DNA of 64,000 nt from an uncultured Ignavibacteria bacterium. GTDB taxonomy: Bacteria; Bacteroidota; Ignavibacteria; Tepidaquicellales; OLB5. Below the pieces are notes generated by a model. It saw nothing but the letters and a program-made list of their open reading frames with translations. It had not been told where the DNA came from and made no database searches. The number at the start of each line of letters is the position of its first letter. Positions within the stretch are counted from its first letter, which is position 1. Below are positions 7,026 through 39,444 of the stretch, one piece after another. The stretch spans positions 299,369 to 363,368 of the forward strand of contig CALMYL010000008.1 in assembly GCA_937873695.1 (NCBI GenBank). Reading direction: 5' to 3'. The translations under genes were made by a program, and so were the position numbers.

Positions 7026-7098
7026 GGACAGGTAGCTCAGTAGGTAGAGCAACGGCCTGAAAAGCCGTGTGTCGCCGGTTCGATTCCGGCCCTGTCCA
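7026..7098 (+). tRNA. tRNA-Phe (GAA anticodon)
   Basis: Full cloverleaf of 73 nt. Acceptor GGACAGG pairs with CCTGTCC, followed by discriminator A. The D arm has TAGCTCAGTAGGTAGAGCA. The anticodon stem ACGGC/GCCGT encloses the loop CTGAAAA with anticodon GAA, and the T arm has GGTTCGATTCC. CCA is not encoded, so it must be added after transcription. It is followed 28 bp later by tRNA-Pro. Confidence 0.97.
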
Positions 7099-7126
7099 CA
7101 GTTTTTTGCCCAAAATTCAGTATCAT

Positions 7127-7201
7127 CGGGATATAGCGTAGTCCGGTTATCGCGCCTGCTTTGGGAGCAGGAGGTCGCAGGTTCGAATCCTGCTATCCCG
7201 A
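7127..7201 (+). tRNA. tRNA-Pro (TGG anticodon)
   Basis: Full cloverleaf of 75 nt. Acceptor CGGGATA pairs with TATCCCG plus discriminator A. The 5' C1 is characteristic of proline tRNAs. The anticodon stem CCTGC/GCAGG encloses TTTGGGA with anticodon TGG. The T arm is GCAGGTTCGAATCCTGC. CCA is not encoded. It is probably co-transcribed with tRNA-Phe. Confidence 0.97.
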
Positions 7202-29024: not shown

Positions 29025-30356
29025 ATGAATTCTAAAGTGCTGATAATAGACGATGAACCTGCGATCAGAAGCCTGCTTGAAAGGATACTTACTCTTGATG
29101 GTTTCGCAGTTATCACAGCCCCGGATTTTGCTTCTGGTATAGCGCAAGCCGAAAAAGAAAATATTGCAGTAATTGTAACTGATGTAAAGCTGCCGGACGG
29201 CAGCGGAATTGACCTTACCAGAAAGATTAAATCCGCTTACCCTGATATTGAAATAATAGTTATTACCGCATTTGGACAAATAAAAGACGGCGTCGAAGCA
29301 ATGAAAAACGGCGCATTTGATTACCTGGTAAAGGGTGATGATGACGATAAGCTTCCGCTCACCGTTAAGCGCGCTTATGAAAAGGCAATGATGCATCGTG
29401 AAGTTAAAGAGCTCCGCAGCCGTATAGATTCCAAATTTGCTTTCAGTAAGATAATCGGCAAATCAAAAAAGATTTCAGAAGCTATTGAATTTGCCAAAAA
29501 AGCCGCGCCAACTGATACAACAGTGCTGCTATTGGGTGAAACCGGGACAGGTAAAGAGCTTTTCGCGCAGGCCATTCACAATTCAAGCAAACGTGCCGCT
29601 AAAAAATTCATAGCGGTAAACTGCAGCGCAATTCCAAAGGACCTTCAGGAATCGGAATTCTTCGGTCACAAAAAAGGCGCGTTTACCGGCGCAGTGAACG
29701 ATAAGAAGGGTTACTTTGAAGAAGCCAATGGCGGCACAATTTTTCTTGATGAAATTGGCGAAATGTCAATGCAAACGCAGGCTAAATTACTGCGTACCAT
29801 CGAAGAAAAAACTTACCTGCGTGTTGGCGATCCCAAAGAGCATACACTTGATATAAGAATAATTGCTGCAACTAACCGTGACCTGAAAGCAGCTATTGCT
29901 GAAGGCACTTTCCGTGAGGACCTTTATTACAGGCTGAATACATTTACAATTCACCTGCCTTCTCTTGCTGAAAGACCTGATGACCTGGATATACTGATAA
30001 GTTATTTTGTGGATTACTACTCGGAGAAACTTAACAAGAAGATCGGTACTGTTAGATCTGATTTTGCTGATACCCTGAAGTCATACAGATTTAAGGGAAA
30101 TATCAGAGAACTAAAAAATATTATCGAGCGTGCAGTAATACTTGCAGGAGATAACCAGCTTACTAAGGAACTTCTTCCGGAAGAATATTCAGATTCAAAA
30201 CCCGGCAGCACTGAACATTCCCTTGAAAGTGTTGAGAAAGCTCATATCATCAAAACTTTAAAAGATTTCCATGGCAACAAAACACAAACCGCTAAAGCAC
30301 TTGGTATTGGCACTGTTACCCTTTACCGAAAACTAAAAGAATACGGAATAGAATAA
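29025..30356 (+). CDS. Sigma-54-dependent response regulator (NtrC family), probable regulator of kdp
   Basis: A 443-residue transcription activator. The receiver domain (1-118) has the phospho-acceptor D53 (VTDVKLPDGSG). The AAA+ domain (about 135-365) has Walker A GETGTGKELFAQ, the sigma-54 contact loop GAFTGA and Walker B GGTIFLDEIGEM. A C-terminal Fis-type helix-turn-helix (KTQTAKALGIGTVTLYRKLKEYG) ends it. It is encoded 150 bp before the kdp operon, and that gap holds a -24/-12 promoter with candidate activator repeats. So it very likely replaces KdpE; its kinase may be the one at 37609. A perfect TATATTTG ends 3 bp before the ATG but lacks a -33 TTG. Confidence 0.92.
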   Translation: MNSKVLIIDDEPAIRSLLERILTLDGFAVITAPDFASGIAQAEKENIAVIVTDVKLPDGSGIDLTRKIKSAYPDIEIIVITAFGQIKDGVEAMKNGAFDYLVKGDDDDKLPLTVKRAYEKAMMHREVKELRSRIDSKFAFSKIIGKSKKISEAIEFAKKAAPTDTTVLLLGETGTGKELFAQAIHNSSKRAAKKFIAVNCSAIPKDLQESEFFGHKKGAFTGAVNDKKGYFEEANGGTIFLDEIGEMSMQTQAKLLRTIEEKTYLRVGDPKEHTLDIRIIAATNRDLKAAIAEGTFREDLYYRLNTFTIHLPSLAERPDDLDILISYFVDYYSEKLNKKIGTVRSDFADTLKSYRFKGNIRELKNIIERAVILAGDNQLTKELLPEEYSDSKPGSTEHSLESVEKAHIIKTLKDFHGNKTQTAKALGIGTVTLYRKLKEYGIE

Positions 30357-30359
30357 TCC

Positions 30360-30430
30360 TTTGAAACACATTTAGGACCCTTTCAATATGATATAACCAT
30401 TTCATTTTGAAACACTGCTTTCTTGAAATC
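30360..30430 (+). promoter_or_regulatory. Candidate upstream activator sites for the NtrC-type regulator
   Basis: The 10-mer TTTGAAACAC occurs at 30360-30369 and again at 30406-30415, 46 bp apart on the same face to within about four helical turns. TTTCAA at 30381-30386 and CTTGAAATC at 30422-30430 give further half-sites, partly as inverted repeats (TTGAAA...TTTCAA). They lie 35-105 bp upstream of the -24/-12 promoter, the usual place for enhancer sites. Inferred. Confidence 0.45.
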
Positions 30431-30464
30431 ATGTGATTTTGAGCCGGAATTGCTATAAATTTTC

Positions 30465-30478
30465 GGCACAGCAATTGC
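30465..30478 (+). promoter_or_regulatory. Sigma-54 (-24/-12) promoter of the kdp operon
   Basis: The string cGGCACAGCAATTGCTTT has GG at 30465-30466 and GC at 30477-30478 with exactly 10 bp between. It matches TGGCAC-N5-TTGC except for the first base. Transcription would start near 30490, about 17 bp before the first ORF of the operon. The gene just upstream encodes a sigma-54 activator with an intact GAFTGA loop. Confidence 0.8.
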
Positions 30479-30506
30479 TTTGTACCTGGTTAAAAATTAC
30501 TAAAAT

Positions 30507-30605
30507 ATGCATGAAATACTAATCATCTTATTGATGCTGTGGCTTGGGGGATTGATGTTCTGGATATTCTTCAGACTTACCGAAAAAGGGGAAAATATAT
30601 TATGA
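30507..30605 (+). CDS. 32-residue single-TM peptide coupled to kdpF
   Basis: ORF MHEILIILLMLWLGGLMFWI plus a 12-residue polar tail (FFRLTEKGENIL). One hydrophobic helix (about 3-22), then a charged tail, so probably inner-membrane. Its TGA stop overlaps the kdpF start as ATGA, a sign of translational coupling. It is the first ORF after the sigma-54 promoter. Short, so its reality rests on position, hydrophobic pattern and overlap. Might be a second KdpF-like subunit or a leader peptide. Confidence 0.55.
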   Translation: MHEILIILLMLWLGGLMFWIFFRLTEKGENIL

Positions 30606-30679
30606 CGATTTTGTTTATCATCAGTATCGCGGTTTTTGCTTACCTGGTTTATTCACTAATTAAAGCAGAAAGGTTTTAG
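30602..30679 (+). CDS. kdpF: KdpF, small subunit of the K+-transporting ATPase
   Basis: A 25-residue one-helix peptide (starting MTILFIISIAVF, ending LIKAERF), matching KdpF in size, hydrophobic core and basic tail. KdpF stabilises the KdpABC complex in the membrane. AAGGGG lies about 10 bp before its ATG. kdpA follows after 6 bp. Confidence 0.88.
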   Translation: MTILFIISIAVFAYLVYSLIKAERF

Positions 30680-30685
30680 TACGAA

Positions 30686-32386
30686 ATGGAATTTCTTTAT
30701 TCTGCAATAATTATTCTGGTTACAATATTACTTGCTGTTCCGCTTGGCAGGTATGTTTCAAAAGTATTTAAAGGTGAAAAGACTTTATTGGATTTCTTTG
30801 AACCCATCGAAAAGCTGATCTTCAAAGTCAGCGGGGTAAACCCGCTTTCGGAAATGGACTGGAAGCAGAACCTGAAGGCTTTGCTGACAATCAATTTGGT
30901 TTGGTTTATCTGGATAATGTTCGTGCTTCTTACGCAAACATGGCATCCGTTCTGGAATCCCGATAACATACTATCTATGGAGCCAACTCAGGCTTTTAAT
31001 ACTGCTGTTAGTTTTGTTACAAACACTAACCTGCAGCATTATTCCGGCGAAACAGGTGCATCATATTTTACACAGCTGCTTGCGCTCGCATTTCTGCAGT
31101 TTGTTTCTGCGGGTACAGGTATCGCAGCGCTTGCGCTGCTGTTTAAAGGTCTCGCAAACAAATCAACCAGGAATCTGGGTAATTTTTATTATCATTTAGT
31201 AAGAGCCTGCACACGGATACTGCTTCCTCTTTCAATAGTACTGGCAGTTGTGTTGCTGCTGAACCAGACACCAATGACATTCAAAGGATCTGAAACAATT
31301 GTGACTCTGCAGGGCGATACAGTAAGCGTGGCACGCGGACCCGTTGCTGCGATGGTTGCAATTAAACAGCTTGGCACAAACGGCGGCGGATTTTTCGGTC
31401 CAAACTCAACACATCCGTTCGAAAATCCGAACGGCATTACAAATGCCGCGGAAAATGCAGCAATTCTTCTGATCCCAATAGCAATGGTGTTTGCTTTGGG
31501 GTACTACCTGAATAGAAAGAAACTCTCATACATTATTATAGCAGTAATGACTGCCGGGTATCTGATGCTTCTTATTCCGACGATTGTGCAGGAAACAGGC
31601 GGCAACCCAAAGATAACACAAATGGGTATAACGCAGCCGCAGGGCAGCATGGAAGGCAAAGAAGCCGGGTTTGGACCCGTGCTTTCAGCACTATGGTCAA
31701 TAAGTACTACAGTAACATCAAACGGCTCTGTAAACTCCATGCACGATAGCTTCACAGCCTTATCGGGCGCGTTCCAGATGATGGGTATGCAGCTCAATGC
31801 TTTTTATGGGGGAGTTGGAGTAGGCTTTATCAATATGTTTATTTTTATGATAATCGCCGTGTTTATTTCCGGACTCATGGTTGGCAGAACGCCTGAATTT
31901 TTGGGTAAAAAGATAGAAGTACGGGAAGTTAAAATTGCAATTCTGGTTGCATTACTGCACCCGTTGTTAATTTTGGGCGGTACGGCACTCGCATCGCATA
32001 CATGGATGATAACAGAAAATCCGGGGGAAGTCTTGAAATGGCTTAATAATCCCGGCTTCCACGGATTCAGCGAAATGCTTTATGAATTCACTTCCGCTGC
32101 GGCAAATAACGGCTCCGGGTTTGAAGGACTTGGCGATAACACACCGTTCTGGAATATTTCTGCAGGTATAGCTATGCTGCTTGGCAGGTATATCCCGATT
32201 ATAGGACCTATAATGATCGCCGGACTCCTTTCGCAGAAGAAATATATTCCTGAATCAGCAGGTACACTTAAGCTAGATTCCGGTATGTTTGGAGTAATGT
32301 TATTTGCGGTGATACTTATTGTAGGTGCACTTTTATTTATACCTGCACTTGTGCTGGGTCCAGTTTCAGAATACTTAACAATTTAA
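30686..32386 (+). CDS. kdpA: K+-transporting ATPase subunit A (K+ channel-like subunit)
   Basis: 566 residues, about ten membrane helices. The four pore-loop selectivity filters of the SKT superfamily are visible: VTNTNLQHYSGE, GTNGGGFFGPNSTHPFENP, STTVTSNGSVN and AAANNGSGFEGL. KdpA binds and admits K+ while KdpB hydrolyses ATP. Normal length (E. coli 557). Start ATG 30686 gives the usual short N-terminus. Confidence 0.97.
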   Translation: MEFLYSAIIILVTILLAVPLGRYVSKVFKGEKTLLDFFEPIEKLIFKVSGVNPLSEMDWKQNLKALLTINLVWFIWIMFVLLTQTWHPFWNPDNILSMEPTQAFNTAVSFVTNTNLQHYSGETGASYFTQLLALAFLQFVSAGTGIAALALLFKGLANKSTRNLGNFYYHLVRACTRILLPLSIVLAVVLLLNQTPMTFKGSETIVTLQGDTVSVARGPVAAMVAIKQLGTNGGGFFGPNSTHPFENPNGITNAAENAAILLIPIAMVFALGYYLNRKKLSYIIIAVMTAGYLMLLIPTIVQETGGNPKITQMGITQPQGSMEGKEAGFGPVLSALWSISTTVTSNGSVNSMHDSFTALSGAFQMMGMQLNAFYGGVGVGFINMFIFMIIAVFISGLMVGRTPEFLGKKIEVREVKIAILVALLHPLLILGGTALASHTWMITENPGEVLKWLNNPGFHGFSEMLYEFTSAAANNGSGFEGLGDNTPFWNISAGIAMLLGRYIPIIGPIMIAGLLSQKKYIPESAGTLKLDSGMFGVMLFAVILIVGALLFIPALVLGPVSEYLTI

Positions 32387-34475: not shown

Positions 34476-35030
34476 ATGATAAAGAATTTAAAAAGTTCGC
34501 TCATCTTAACAGTAATATTGATCTTAATGTTCGGTGTTGTTTACCCGCTTGGAATATATACAATAGGATTGGTGTTTTCTTCAAACTCAGTTGGTTCGCC
34601 AATTGTGAAGAATGAACAGATTGTAGGATTTGAAAATATCGGTCAAAGTTTCACTGATGATAAATATTTCTGGGGCAGACCCTCGACAGTAGGTTACAAT
34701 GCTGCCTCCACGGGCGGTTCAAACAAAGGTCCCACTAACCCCGATTACCTGGCTGAAGTACAGGCAAGGATCGATACTTTCCTGTTGCATAACCCGGGCG
34801 TAAAGAAAGAAGAAATTCCATCTGACCTGGTTACTGCGCCCGGCTCGGGTATCGACCCCAATATCTCGCCAAACTCTGCGTACATACAGGTAAAAAGGAT
34901 AGCTGTAGTGCGGAATTTACCTGAAGCACAAATAAAAGCTCTTGTTGATCAAAGCATTGAAAACACAGTGTTGGGAATGCCTGTAATAAATGTACTTAAA
35001 CTGAATTTAAAACTTGATGAATTAAAATAA
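34476..35030 (+). CDS. kdpC: K+-transporting ATPase subunit C
   Basis: 184 residues. One N-terminal membrane helix (8-32) followed by a periplasmic domain with the family motifs FWGRPSTVGYNAASTGGSN and DLVTAPGSGIDPNISP. KdpC is an accessory subunit that raises K+ affinity and complex stability. It follows kdpB by 10 bp and shares its operon. Confidence 0.96.
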   Translation: MIKNLKSSLILTVILILMFGVVYPLGIYTIGLVFSSNSVGSPIVKNEQIVGFENIGQSFTDDKYFWGRPSTVGYNAASTGGSNKGPTNPDYLAEVQARIDTFLLHNPGVKKEEIPSDLVTAPGSGIDPNISPNSAYIQVKRIAVVRNLPEAQIKALVDQSIENTVLGMPVINVLKLNLKLDELK

Positions 35031-35173: not shown

Positions 35174-35299
35174 ATGATCACATTAAAAATGAAAAACCAC
35201 GATATTGATCATTATGAATTACTAATTGAAATGCTCCCGGTGATAATAACACTATTGGGAGTACTAATAGCGAACATATTATATTTTATCTATGACTAA
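35174..35299 (+). CDS. 41-residue single-TM peptide between kdpC and porin
   Basis: ORF beginning MITLKMKNHDIDHYE, with a hydrophobic helix at about 19-39 and a short FIYD end. No ribosome-binding site. Its stop overlaps an ATG at 35292 of the next frame, and lies 4 bp before the better porin ATG at 35304. Probably a small membrane protein; reality uncertain. Confidence 0.4.
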   Translation: MITLKMKNHDIDHYELLIEMLPVIITLLGVLIANILYFIYD

Positions 35300-35303
35300 C
35301 TTC

Positions 35304-36368
35304 ATGAAAAAGTTTTACACTGTTCTGATTTTTGTTTTTCTTCCGCTTGTTGTTTGTGGGCAGGATCTTACCAAGTTTACATTAGGCGGATATGTTGATA
35401 CTTACTACTCATGGGATGATGATAAAAACGGTAATCCCATAAGGCAATTCTCTTCTATTGTTCCCTACAGGGAAGAATTCAGGTTGAATATCGCACAGGT
35501 ATCGCTTAAGTACAATGATACAAAAGTACACGGCGTGTTGACGATGCATTACGGTGATATCCCTTCAGTAAACTGGCCGGCAAACCAGCAGTTTGTACAG
35601 GAAGCTTATGCCGGATTTTCACCTGCTGAGAATCTATGGATAGACGCCGGGTATTTCTTGACTCACATTGGAGCCGAAGGGTTGCTGCCTAAAGGGAATT
35701 TTTTCAATACGCTGGCTTTGGCAACATACTATGAGCCCTTTTACCAGAGCGGGGTGAGAGTATCATATGAATTTTCACCTAAGGTTTATGGTTCATTGCA
35801 TCTGTTGAACGGCTATAATGTATTTGCTGATAATAATAAAAATAAATCATTTGGTTTAACGATTGGCGTGAAACCGGCTAAGAACCTCGAAATAATTTAT
35901 AATAATCTTGTTGGCAACGAAATTTCCTCTGGCTCAGGAGGTAAAACAAGGATGTATAACAATCTTGTTTTCAAATTTTCACCTTCATCCAAAGTTGATT
36001 TTCTCCTGGGGGCTGATTTAGCCTTCCAGGAAAGATCATCTCTCACTGATTCGACTGCATCTGCGACAATGTTTTCGGGTCTTGCCGGAATTAAGTATAA
36101 AATTTCAAAGAAAGTTTCCGCGACCATTCGCGGTGAAATATTCAATGATAAAGATGGTTTCTTATCAGGTGAAATAACAGATGCTGCCGGAAAACAAACC
36201 GGGCTGAAAGCTTTTGGAGTGACTTTCGGGATTGAAGTAAGACCTGTGGATAACGCCTATTTCAGGATCGAATCGAGATATTTATCAGCTGATAAATATC
36301 AAAAGATATTCAATGAAGATAAAAACTCACGAATTGAGGCAAATACCAGTATAGGAATAGAATTTTAG
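35304..36368 (+). CDS. Outer-membrane beta-barrel porin of the kdp locus
   Basis: About 354 residues. Start chosen at ATG 35304 so that MKKFYTVLIFVFLPLVVCGQ is a signal peptide (cleavage near CGQ); an upstream in-frame ATG at 35292 would add four polar residues. The mature protein alternates aromatic and polar residues in ~16 strands (GGYVDTYYSWDDD, VYGSLHLLNGYNVF, AYFRIESRYLS) and ends in a strand with terminal F (SIGIEF). Such porins follow kdpC in other Bacteroidota and may bring K+ across the outer membrane, which is inference from position. Confidence 0.82.
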   Translation: MKKFYTVLIFVFLPLVVCGQDLTKFTLGGYVDTYYSWDDDKNGNPIRQFSSIVPYREEFRLNIAQVSLKYNDTKVHGVLTMHYGDIPSVNWPANQQFVQEAYAGFSPAENLWIDAGYFLTHIGAEGLLPKGNFFNTLALATYYEPFYQSGVRVSYEFSPKVYGSLHLLNGYNVFADNNKNKSFGLTIGVKPAKNLEIIYNNLVGNEISSGSGGKTRMYNNLVFKFSPSSKVDFLLGADLAFQERSSLTDSTASATMFSGLAGIKYKISKKVSATIRGEIFNDKDGFLSGEITDAAGKQTGLKAFGVTFGIEVRPVDNAYFRIESRYLSADKYQKIFNEDKNSRIEANTSIGIEF

Positions 36369-36444: not shown

Positions 36445-37593
36445 ATGGTTAATCCAATTGATCTGAAATACGATGCCGCCGGGCAGAATTTCTACCAGCT
36501 TATTCAAAAGGGAAGGCGGGGGAGCTTTAAGATATATATCGGGCTTGCCGCCGGGGTTGGCAAAACTTACCGGATGCTGCAGGAAGCGCACCAGCTGATG
36601 ACCGCAGGAGTTGATGCGGCCATTGGATATATTGAAACGCACGGAAGGGCTGAAACTGAAAAGCTTGTTCAGGGAATTCCGTTAATACCCCGGAAACAGA
36701 TATATTACAAAGGCAAAGAGCTTGAGGAAATGGATATTGATTCGATACTTTTGCGCAGACCCGAAGTTGTGATAGTTGATGAGCTTGCGCATACAAATGC
36801 ACCGGGCAGCAGGAATGAAAAACGTTACCAGGATGTTGAAGAATTGCTGAATAACGGAATTAACGTCATAAGCGCCATTAACATACAGCATATTGAAAGC
36901 CTGAACAACTTTGTTGCCGGTATTACAAAAATAAAAGTAGCTGAAACTGTTCCCGATAAAATTGTTGGGTTAGCCGATGAAGTTGTGAATATTGATCTCA
37001 CGGCTGATGAACTGATACAAAGACTTAAGGACGGCAAAATTTACAAAAGTGATAAGATCCAGTCAGCGCTTGCGAATTTTTTCAAACGCGAACACCTGCT
37101 TCAGCTGCGGGAGCTTGCTCTCAGAGAAGTTGCCAATGCTGTTGAAAAGAAAATAAATTCCGAAGTTACTGCTTACGACAGGGCGCCGGATGAAGTTATA
37201 CTTGTTTGTCTTGGCAACGACCCTGAAAAAAATGAAAAGCTTATCAGAAGAAGTGCAAGGATATCTGAGAGATTTGAACAGAAATGGTTTACCCTTTATG
37301 TTGATACACCCGATAACTCATTCGAAAATATAGACCTGAAGCTGCAGCGCTACCTTATAAATAATTTCAAGATGGCAACGGAAATGGGCGGTATCAGCGA
37401 GAAGGTAAGCGCGCCTGATGTAATAACAGGTATAATTGAGTTTGCCAAAGAGAAGAATATTACTAAAATTGTTCTTGGCAAACCTGCTAAAAAAGGATAC
37501 CTGAAAAAAATAATCACAACCCCAATTGTTGATAAACTCATTGAGGCGGTTTCGAAGGAAGAACGGGATTACGATATTGAAATTATTGCTTAA
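36445..37593 (+). CDS. KdpD-like sensor protein: Walker A/Usp part only, no kinase
   Basis: A 382-residue cytoplasmic protein equal to the N-terminal half of KdpD. The KdpD domain (about 22-230) has the Walker-A-like GLAAGVGKTYRML, GYIETHGRAETE, EVVIVDELAHTNAPGS and INIQHIESLN. The Usp domain (about 245-380) follows with DRAPDEVILVC and IVLGKPAKKGY. The membrane helices, GAF and histidine kinase of E. coli KdpD are missing, so it cannot phosphorylate a regulator alone. The next gene, 15 bp on, encodes a separate kinase. It may act as a K+/ATP-dependent modulator of that kinase. Confidence 0.92.
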   Translation: MVNPIDLKYDAAGQNFYQLIQKGRRGSFKIYIGLAAGVGKTYRMLQEAHQLMTAGVDAAIGYIETHGRAETEKLVQGIPLIPRKQIYYKGKELEEMDIDSILLRRPEVVIVDELAHTNAPGSRNEKRYQDVEELLNNGINVISAINIQHIESLNNFVAGITKIKVAETVPDKIVGLADEVVNIDLTADELIQRLKDGKIYKSDKIQSALANFFKREHLLQLRELALREVANAVEKKINSEVTAYDRAPDEVILVCLGNDPEKNEKLIRRSARISERFEQKWFTLYVDTPDNSFENIDLKLQRYLINNFKMATEMGGISEKVSAPDVITGIIEFAKEKNITKIVLGKPAKKGYLKKIITTPIVDKLIEAVSKEERDYDIEIIA

Positions 37594-37608: not shown

Positions 37609-39444
37609 ATGAAAATTAAGCTGAAAACTCTTTTCTTGCTGGGCTATTTGCTGATGGGAGCAATTGTTCTTCTTCTTGGTTTTACCGGCATATATTTTAT
37701 AGAGAGACTCTCCAATACACCCGATAAGATATTAAAGGATAATTACGGAAGTATCATTGCGGCACAGAATATGATAGATGAGCTTGATAACATGGATAAC
37801 GCAATTATAACCTATGTTTCGGGTAAGCCGGATAAAAATATGGCGGATTCATTATTTACTTCGGCCAGAGATAAATATTTTCTTAACTTGAAAAAATGCG
37901 AAAGCAACATTACTGAGCCCGGCGAAACAGAATTGACGGCTGATATCAGGAAAAAGACCGAACATTATATCAGATCATATGAGCAAAACAGGACTTCTCT
38001 TAATAACATTTTAGCATATGATTCTGTTATTTCGCCGCAGTATACTCTGCTGAAAAAATCCTGTTATGAACTTCTCAATCTTAATCATAAGGGAATGCTT
38101 AACAGGCGCGATGAAACAGTGAAAATTTCCGAGAGCGCTGAGCTGTATATGATGGTAATTTCAGCTTTATCTCTGATTATAGTGCTGATTGCTATACTTA
38201 AGGTACCGTCTCTTATTGTAAATCCGGTTAATGAATTCACTCGGAAAGTCGAGGCCATTGCTGAAAAACGATATTCAGAAAGGGTTGAAATAAATTCAGG
38301 CAATGAGCTGGGTAAGCTTGCACTTTCGTTCAATAACATGGCTTCAAAGCTGGAGGAGTATGAAAAGAGCAATATAGAAATGCTCATTGCCGAAAAGAAA
38401 CGCGCTGAAGCAATTGTTAAGAGCATGATCGACGGTATAATTGTTCTGAATGAAAATTATGATGTAATACTTGTAAATAATATCGGCACGGAACTTCTGG
38501 GGATATCAGAATCAGCCCTGCTGGGAAAAAATATGCTTGAAGTATCACATACAAACAGCTTAGTAAAGAACATAACTGATGATTTTGCAGGGCATGATAA
38601 AGAAAAGGGCAACCTGAATTATATAAGGATTGTATTCCGCGAAAGGGAAGAGTACTTCCTGAAAGAAATTCTTAATGTCACCGATGAAAACAATCCGCAA
38701 AAGACCCTGGGTTATATAATAATATTAAAAAATGTGACAGGATTCAAAGAGCTTGATGAATTAAAAAGCGGGTTTGTGGCTACTGTATCGCATGAGCTGC
38801 GCACCCCGCTCTCGGCAATGAATATGAGCCTCAGGCTGCTGCAGGATGAGCGTATAGGCGGCATGAATGATGAGCAGAAGCGAATTACTTCCGCTATGAA
38901 GGATGAAGTGAAGAGGCTGCTAAAGCTTGTGAATGAACTGCTTGACCTTTCAAGAATTGAATCAGGGAGCGAAATACTTAAATACAGGGAAGTGAAAGCA
39001 GATGAGCTTGTTGATGCCGCGATAACGCCAATGCTCCTTCAGTTTGAGCAGAAGAATATTGAGCTTGTTACAGAAATTGAACCGGATCTTCCGGGGTTGA
39101 AAGTTGACGCCAATAAAATAGCATGGGTTATGATAAACCTGCTCAATAATGCTGTAAGGTATTCTGCTGATGGCGGAGAAATAGTTCTGAAGGTACACAA
39201 AGATACCGGCAAAGTGATATTTTCTGTGAAAGACCACGGCTCGGGAATTGAACCGCAATACCTGAGCAGGATTTTCGAAAAATTTGTTCAGGTGAAATCA
39301 AGAAATATTGAAAGTATAAATAAAGGTGTGGGGTTAGGACTCGCTATTTCAAAAGAATTTGTTAACGCCCACGGCGGTGATATCTGGGTTAAGAGTGAAA
39401 TAGGGAAGGGAAGTGAATTCAGCTTTTCGATACCTGTAAACTAA
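37609..39444 (+). CDS. HAMP-PAS sensor histidine kinase of the kdp locus
   Basis: A 611-residue membrane kinase. Helix 1 is at about 8-32, a helical periplasmic region at 33-178, helix 2 at about 180-200, HAMP at 200-255, PAS about 265-370. The HisKA domain has H395 in VSHELRTPL and the ATPase has MINLLNNAVRYS, DHGSGIEPQYLSRIFEKF and GVGLGLAISKEF. It follows the KdpD-like protein by 15 bp, so the two are likely to work together. Its target is probably the NtrC-type regulator at 29025, not encoded beside it but in the same locus. Confidence 0.93.
   Translation: MKIKLKTLFLLGYLLMGAIVLLLGFTGIYFIERLSNTPDKILKDNYGSIIAAQNMIDELDNMDNAIITYVSGKPDKNMADSLFTSARDKYFLNLKKCESNITEPGETELTADIRKKTEHYIRSYEQNRTSLNNILAYDSVISPQYTLLKKSCYELLNLNHKGMLNRRDETVKISESAELYMMVISALSLIIVLIAILKVPSLIVNPVNEFTRKVEAIAEKRYSERVEINSGNELGKLALSFNNMASKLEEYEKSNIEMLIAEKKRAEAIVKSMIDGIIVLNENYDVILVNNIGTELLGISESALLGKNMLEVSHTNSLVKNITDDFAGHDKEKGNLNYIRIVFREREEYFLKEILNVTDENNPQKTLGYIIILKNVTGFKELDELKSGFVATVSHELRTPLSAMNMSLRLLQDERIGGMNDEQKRITSAMKDEVKRLLKLVNELLDLSRIESGSEILKYREVKADELVDAAITPMLLQFEQKNIELVTEIEPDLPGLKVDANKIAWVMINLLNNAVRYSADGGEIVLKVHKDTGKVIFSVKDHGSGIEPQYLSRIFEKFVQVKSRNIESINKGVGLGLAISKEFVNAHGGDIWVKSEIGKGSEFSFSIPVN

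Follow-up and report, generated by a model that had tools for sequence, protein, structure and literature searches.

A predicted sigma-54 promoter and NtrC-type activator for the kdp cluster of Ignavibacteria and Bacteroidota

The kdp cluster of the window (the whole stretch of 64 kb that was analysed, from an uncultured bacterium of the Ignavibacteria with a genome of 3.78 Mb) is very probably run from a sigma-54 promoter at 30464–30479 by the NtrC-type activator encoded upstream, which would act through two dyads in the spacer and replace KdpE. With good but lesser confidence, sequence comparisons place kdp in Ignavibacteria and much of Bacteroidota under one orthologous NtrC-type activator, with CCTTTCA-N3-TGAAAGG enhancers and sigma-54 promoters (having a TTGG-type -12 element in Bacteroidota), and not under KdpE.

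Gene cluster and predicted regulators

The cluster lies entirely on the plus strand. Its proposed activator, an NtrC-type response regulator or enhancer-binding protein (29025..30356), has a receiver (PF00072), a Sigma54_activat AAA+ domain with GAFTGA (PF00158), an AAA lid (PF25601), and a Fis-type HTH (HTH_8; PF02954). The GAFTGA loop and the phospho-acceptor Asp of the receiver are retained, and domains and motif confirm the earlier note, which had recognized the gene adjacent to kdp as an NtrC-type activator with intact GAFTGA.

Downstream of the spacer are kdpF (30602..30680; TIGR02115, PF09604), kdpA (30686..32386; TIGR00680), kdpB (34465 being its last position, from 32414; TIGR01497), which keeps a TGES motif with the inhibitory serine, and kdpC (34476..35030; TIGR00681, PF02669). 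KdpD is split into two ORFs. The first (36445..37593; PF02702) encodes a stand-alone KdpD/Usp-like protein without histidine kinase domain, has NF038185 KdpD_non_kinase as its best match, under the curated cut-off of that model, and keeps GLAAGVGKT (Walker A) and VIVDE (Walker B), so that by sequence it has the features of the short atypical serine kinase KdpD. The second (37609..39444; PF00672, PF00989, PF00512, PF02518) encodes a separate HAMP-PAS-HisKA-HATPase sensor kinase, which is retained in the cluster of relatives and is probably the partner of the activator. No ORF for an OmpR-type regulator (KdpE) was found in or beside the kdp cluster, and the E. coli-type KdpDE arrangement is thus absent from it. 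An outer-membrane porin-like gene (BBP2, 35292..36368; PF07642) is located between kdpC and kdpD, and has the same position in many relatives.

The first ORF 3' of the promoter, ORF1 (30507..30605), encodes a membrane-protein-like peptide of 32 aa and overlaps kdpF at ATGA. Its type (26–32 aa, just 5' of kdpF, e.g., MLTIILILAGLVCFALFFKAIDFFDKI) has orthologues in Ignavibacteria and Bacteroidota (loci L083, L107, L120, and others) and is matched by no Pfam or NCBIfam model; it is possibly an unrecognized small Kdp subunit. In six loci (L039, L040, L042, L043, L044, and L048), differing small ORFs of ~46–60 aa are found between the promoter and ORF1.

In the proposed mechanism, the histidine kinase would probably phosphorylate the NtrC-type regulator, with low K+ as the presumed signal, and the regulator would bind the tandem pair of TTTCA-N3-TGAAA dyads, which lie almost on one face of the helix. 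Looping would then bring it to RNAP-sigma54, where the GAFTGA loop would drive open-complex formation; an activator that drives sigma-54 transcription of kdp in this manner would thus substitute for KdpE. The target of the stand-alone KdpD/Usp protein would be the pump and not transcription, through the inhibitory phosphorylation of KdpB that other KdpD proteins have been shown to perform. With KdpD/Usp acting on KdpB and the kinase and activator on the promoter, the two control arms would reside on different proteins. A gene with a diadenylate cyclase domain is present in the genome. Sigma-54 promoters in general allow tight off/on switching.

Promoter and dyads in the activator-kdp spacer

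The sequence CGGCACAGCAATTGCT at 30464–30479 has the GG-N10-GC arrangement and matches the sigma-54 consensus TGGCACGNNNNTTGCW at 10 of 12 positions. It conforms to the promoter definition that was used, GG/GC at -24/-12 spacing within TGGCAC-N5-TTGCW. The -24 element, cGGCACA (30464..30470, plus strand), matches TGGCACG and has GGCA invariant among congeners; the -12 element, TTGCT (30475..30479, plus strand), keeps the GG-N10-GC spacing and is conserved. The earlier note had placed a GG/GC pair at exact -24/-12 spacing ahead of the first ORF of the kdp operon, and this is correct, with GG at 30465–30466, GC at 30477–30478 and the ORF beginning at 30507. From the position of GG-N10-GC, transcription of the cluster is predicted to start near 30490. 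A riboswitch upstream of kdp was considered and rejected, since Rfam gave no match in the vicinity of kdp and the predicted leader has just ~17 nt; two adjacent tRNA genes (7026–7201) are the sole Rfam matches in the window.

The window site is not significant by itself, since 2.7% of Markov-shuffled spacers reach its 10/12 score and the 64 kb hold six sites with two mismatches to the consensus; conservation is therefore what decides. The combination of site and dyad at 60–71 bp occurred in 0 of 20,000 shuffles (the dyad pattern having been defined post hoc), and the genome of 3.78 Mb has three matches to the pattern GGCAYRGNAATTGCW, the two besides that of kdp lying within ORFs. The genome encodes rpoN (PF04552, E 4.2e-58; G000 C18), and none of the 99 genomes searched lacks RpoN.

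Two predicted activator dyads (no strand assigned) precede the promoter: dyad 1, TTTCA-ATA-TGATA (30381..30393), is centred at ~-103, and dyad 2, TTTCA-TTT-TGAAA (30400..30412), which is the inverted repeat TTTCATTTTGAAA, at ~-84. They stand in tandem, 19 bp apart, have the general form TTTCA-N3-TGA(A/T)A, and fall in the range expected of palindromic activator sites, ~80–150 bp upstream of the start. The earlier note had taken the direct repeat TTTGAAACAC for the enhancer. Its two copies, at 30360 and 30406, are exact and are the only ones in the window, but the interpretation has to be given up: the copy at 30406 makes up the right half of dyad 2, the copy at 30360 directly follows the stop codon of the activator gene and is not conserved as a dyad, and the conserved units are the tandem inverted repeats.

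Conservation among Ignavibacteria

Of 99 related genomes searched for KdpA, 44 encode it, and their kdp neighbourhoods were compared. Two types of kdp locus were distinguished, one with the activator family directly upstream (KdpA ~56–96% identical to that of the window) and one without it (~35–47%). Locus L041, of the first type, was left out because its contig ends before the promoter region. Among the 16 informative activator-kdp loci, the window included, 12 have a -24/-12 site of 10–12/12 (perfect in L046 and L054) and three a weaker site of 9/12 (L045, L048, and L051). Locus L049 (3621–4012) retains the activator-kdp order, yet has no recognizable -24/-12 site or strict dyad. The GG/GC pair is thus kept in 15 of the 16, which favours the promoter in the test set beforehand by the earlier note, conservation of the pair in relatives keeping the gene order.

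No comparable -24/-12 element was found in 30 kdpA upstream regions without the window's activator family, and the dyads were likewise absent from these control regions; for ten non-redundant activator-kdp loci against the 30 controls, P = 2.7e-5 (phylogeny ignored). In four loci without the window's activator type (L057, L065, L066, and L071), kdpA adjoins a histidine kinase gene and has, ~2.5 kb upstream, the gene of another NtrC-like activator; in the activator tree, these proteins make up a clade of their own.

Across nine congeneric loci, identity is 93% in the -24 box, 92% in the -12 box, 96% in the arms of dyad 2 and 84% in those of dyad 1, as against 63% in the remaining spacer, a gap equalled by 0 of 20,000 random choices of columns. 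In relatives, the dyads begin 62–68 and 83–87 bp ahead of the -24 box. It is hardly credible that the -24/-12 match arose by chance and has been conserved through genome relatedness alone; the site taken singly would allow it (P = 0.027, with six equally good strings in the window), but the element is kept even where orthologous activators share only 47–65% identity, is more conserved than its flanks, is missing where the activator is absent, and stands at a fixed distance from the dyads.

The same columns bear on whether most kdp transcription might come from a housekeeping promoter or from polymerases reading through the activator gene, with a minor part for the sigma-54 site. This is improbable, although activator gene and kdp share a strand and are separated by ~150 bp, a terminator-like hairpin was not found in 30300–30700, and some 5/6 TAnnTTTG-like strings are present in the spacer. 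Simple scans of the spacer gave neither an exact TAnnTTTG nor a plus-strand sigma-70-type site, and its most conserved columns are the -24/-12 boxes and the dyads.

Activator family and Bacteroidota loci

A scan with the KdpA alignment gave 80 loci, mostly of Bacteroidota, 57 of which have the activator at most 2.5 kb upstream of kdpA; 55 of these 57 are outside Ignavibacteria. A tree of 62 proteins unites the kdp-linked activators of both groups, Ignavibacteria and Bacteroidota, in a single clade (100/99). Outside it fall the genome's remaining sigma-54 activators, as far as the tree included them, and those encoded close to kdp loci of the second type. Tree rows marked 'other' within the clade mostly represent activators at a greater distance from kdpA, where genes have been inserted into the locus. 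Among 69 kdp-linked activators, the loop reads GAFTGA in 62, GSFTGA in five and GAYTGA in one, with one giving no match, and 68 of the proteins showed the phospho-acceptor Asp.

The activator might be sigma-54-dependent with its main targets elsewhere, kdp being only one of the genes in a larger regulon that answers another signal, and the binding of three response regulators at kdp of Desulfovibrio vulgaris (PMC3333781) is compatible with this. Such a regulon is unlikely here: the 16-base dyad form has a single occurrence in the 3.78 Mb genome (searched at one mismatch or fewer), and the activator gene accompanies kdp in two phyla.

The canonical TGGCACGNNNNTTGCW score fails as a promoter criterion in Bacteroidota. 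The first motifs found de novo in these loci were coding sequence (the C-termini of KdpF and ORF1) and were discarded; ranked below the ORF1 motif was CCTTTCATTTTGAAAGG, which is the same dyad as in the window. It occurs in 45 of the 55 loci of the Bacteroidota set (shuffles: mean 2.8, max 9), and a GG-N-TTGG element follows it downstream in 30 of these 45 (shuffles: mean 0.37, max 3), the other 15 giving no match to it; the counts for dyad and element overstate significance somewhat, because the patterns were chosen after inspecting the sequences. The element became apparent only after anchoring on the KdpF and ORF1 reading frames and the dyad. Its distances from the dyad are 71, 84, 92–95, 104–105, and 114–117 bp, in steps of about one helical turn.

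In loci L080–L155 the element reads GG-N-TTGG(C/T), not GG-N10-GC, and its -12 part has TTGG in place of TTGC. We infer that the variant is the sigma-54 promoter of Bacteroidota, and its form suggests a different -12 preference of sigma-54 in this phylum. Typical -24/-12 sigma-54 promoters are described for Flavobacterium psychrophilum in a start-site paper (PMC9723704). The predicted cis-code is testable in cultivable species of Flavobacterium or Pedobacter.

Comparison with known systems

In E. coli, KdpE is an OmpR-type regulator of the sigma-70 transcription of kdpFABC, and KdpD is one fused chain. The window's cluster shares with the E. coli KdpDE-sigma-70 system the pump and the presence of a two-component system, and differs in having an NtrC-type regulator, a predicted sigma-54 promoter, and a split KdpD.

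A close likeness, compared by published description, is to D. vulgaris Hildenborough, in which DVU3334, a GAFTGA NtrC-type response regulator in the sigma-54 regulome, controls kdpFABC, and KdpD is divided between a sensor/Usp ORF and a histidine kinase encoded separately (PMC3333781, PMC4641369). Both systems have an NtrC-type regulator beside kdp, a split KdpD, and a sigma-54 promoter, predicted in the window. The D. vulgaris regulator is described within the kdp operon that it controls (DVU3334–3339), whereas in the window it is encoded upstream in its own ORF with the candidate enhancers in the spacer, and D. vulgaris belongs to a different phylum. The earlier note had regarded sigma-54 control of kdp as a different logic. 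Promoter, RpoN, activator, and conservation speak for such control, but as a regulatory logic it was already known, because DVU3334 is a published precedent.

What is new, as read from sequence, is the extent of sigma-54 kdp control, with its wide distribution, and its cis-code; a circuit documented in one sulfate reducer would be extended to two more phyla. The literature searched, with subscription journals mostly outside it, held no report of sigma-54 kdp control in Ignavibacteria or Bacteroidota, and kdp is not mentioned in the main texts of a 2025 sigma-54 survey (PMC12316311) and of the F. psychrophilum paper (PMC9723704). Papers on Acidihalobacter and Geobacter that pair kdp with sigma-54 were rejected as precedents, since they describe neighbours or a KdpDE system.

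A 2024 study found that species without KdpE mostly have a KdpD able only to inhibit the pump, and where no separate kinase has been identified, kdp expression, according to that study, may be constitutive or under an unknown mechanism (PMC11018627). The short KdpD/Usp form, without histidine kinase domain and with Walker motifs, occurs mostly in species without KdpE, and is named as the main form in Bacteroidota; inhibition of the pump by the KdpD domain proceeds via phosphorylation of a KdpB serine, and in one short KdpD/Usp protein this takes place under c-di-AMP (PMC11018627). The window's protein resembles this form in lacking the kinase domain and keeping the Walker motifs. Unlike the species for which no kinase has been identified, the window's cluster includes both a kinase and an activator. 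If the proposed circuit is true, it answers how species with a serine-kinase-only KdpD control pump transcription, and it assigns K+ control at the transcriptional level and at the post-translational level to separate proteins. For Ignavibacteria and Bacteroidota, the layout offers a concrete, testable answer to the gap left by that study, a dedicated sigma-54 activator with defined predicted DNA sites.
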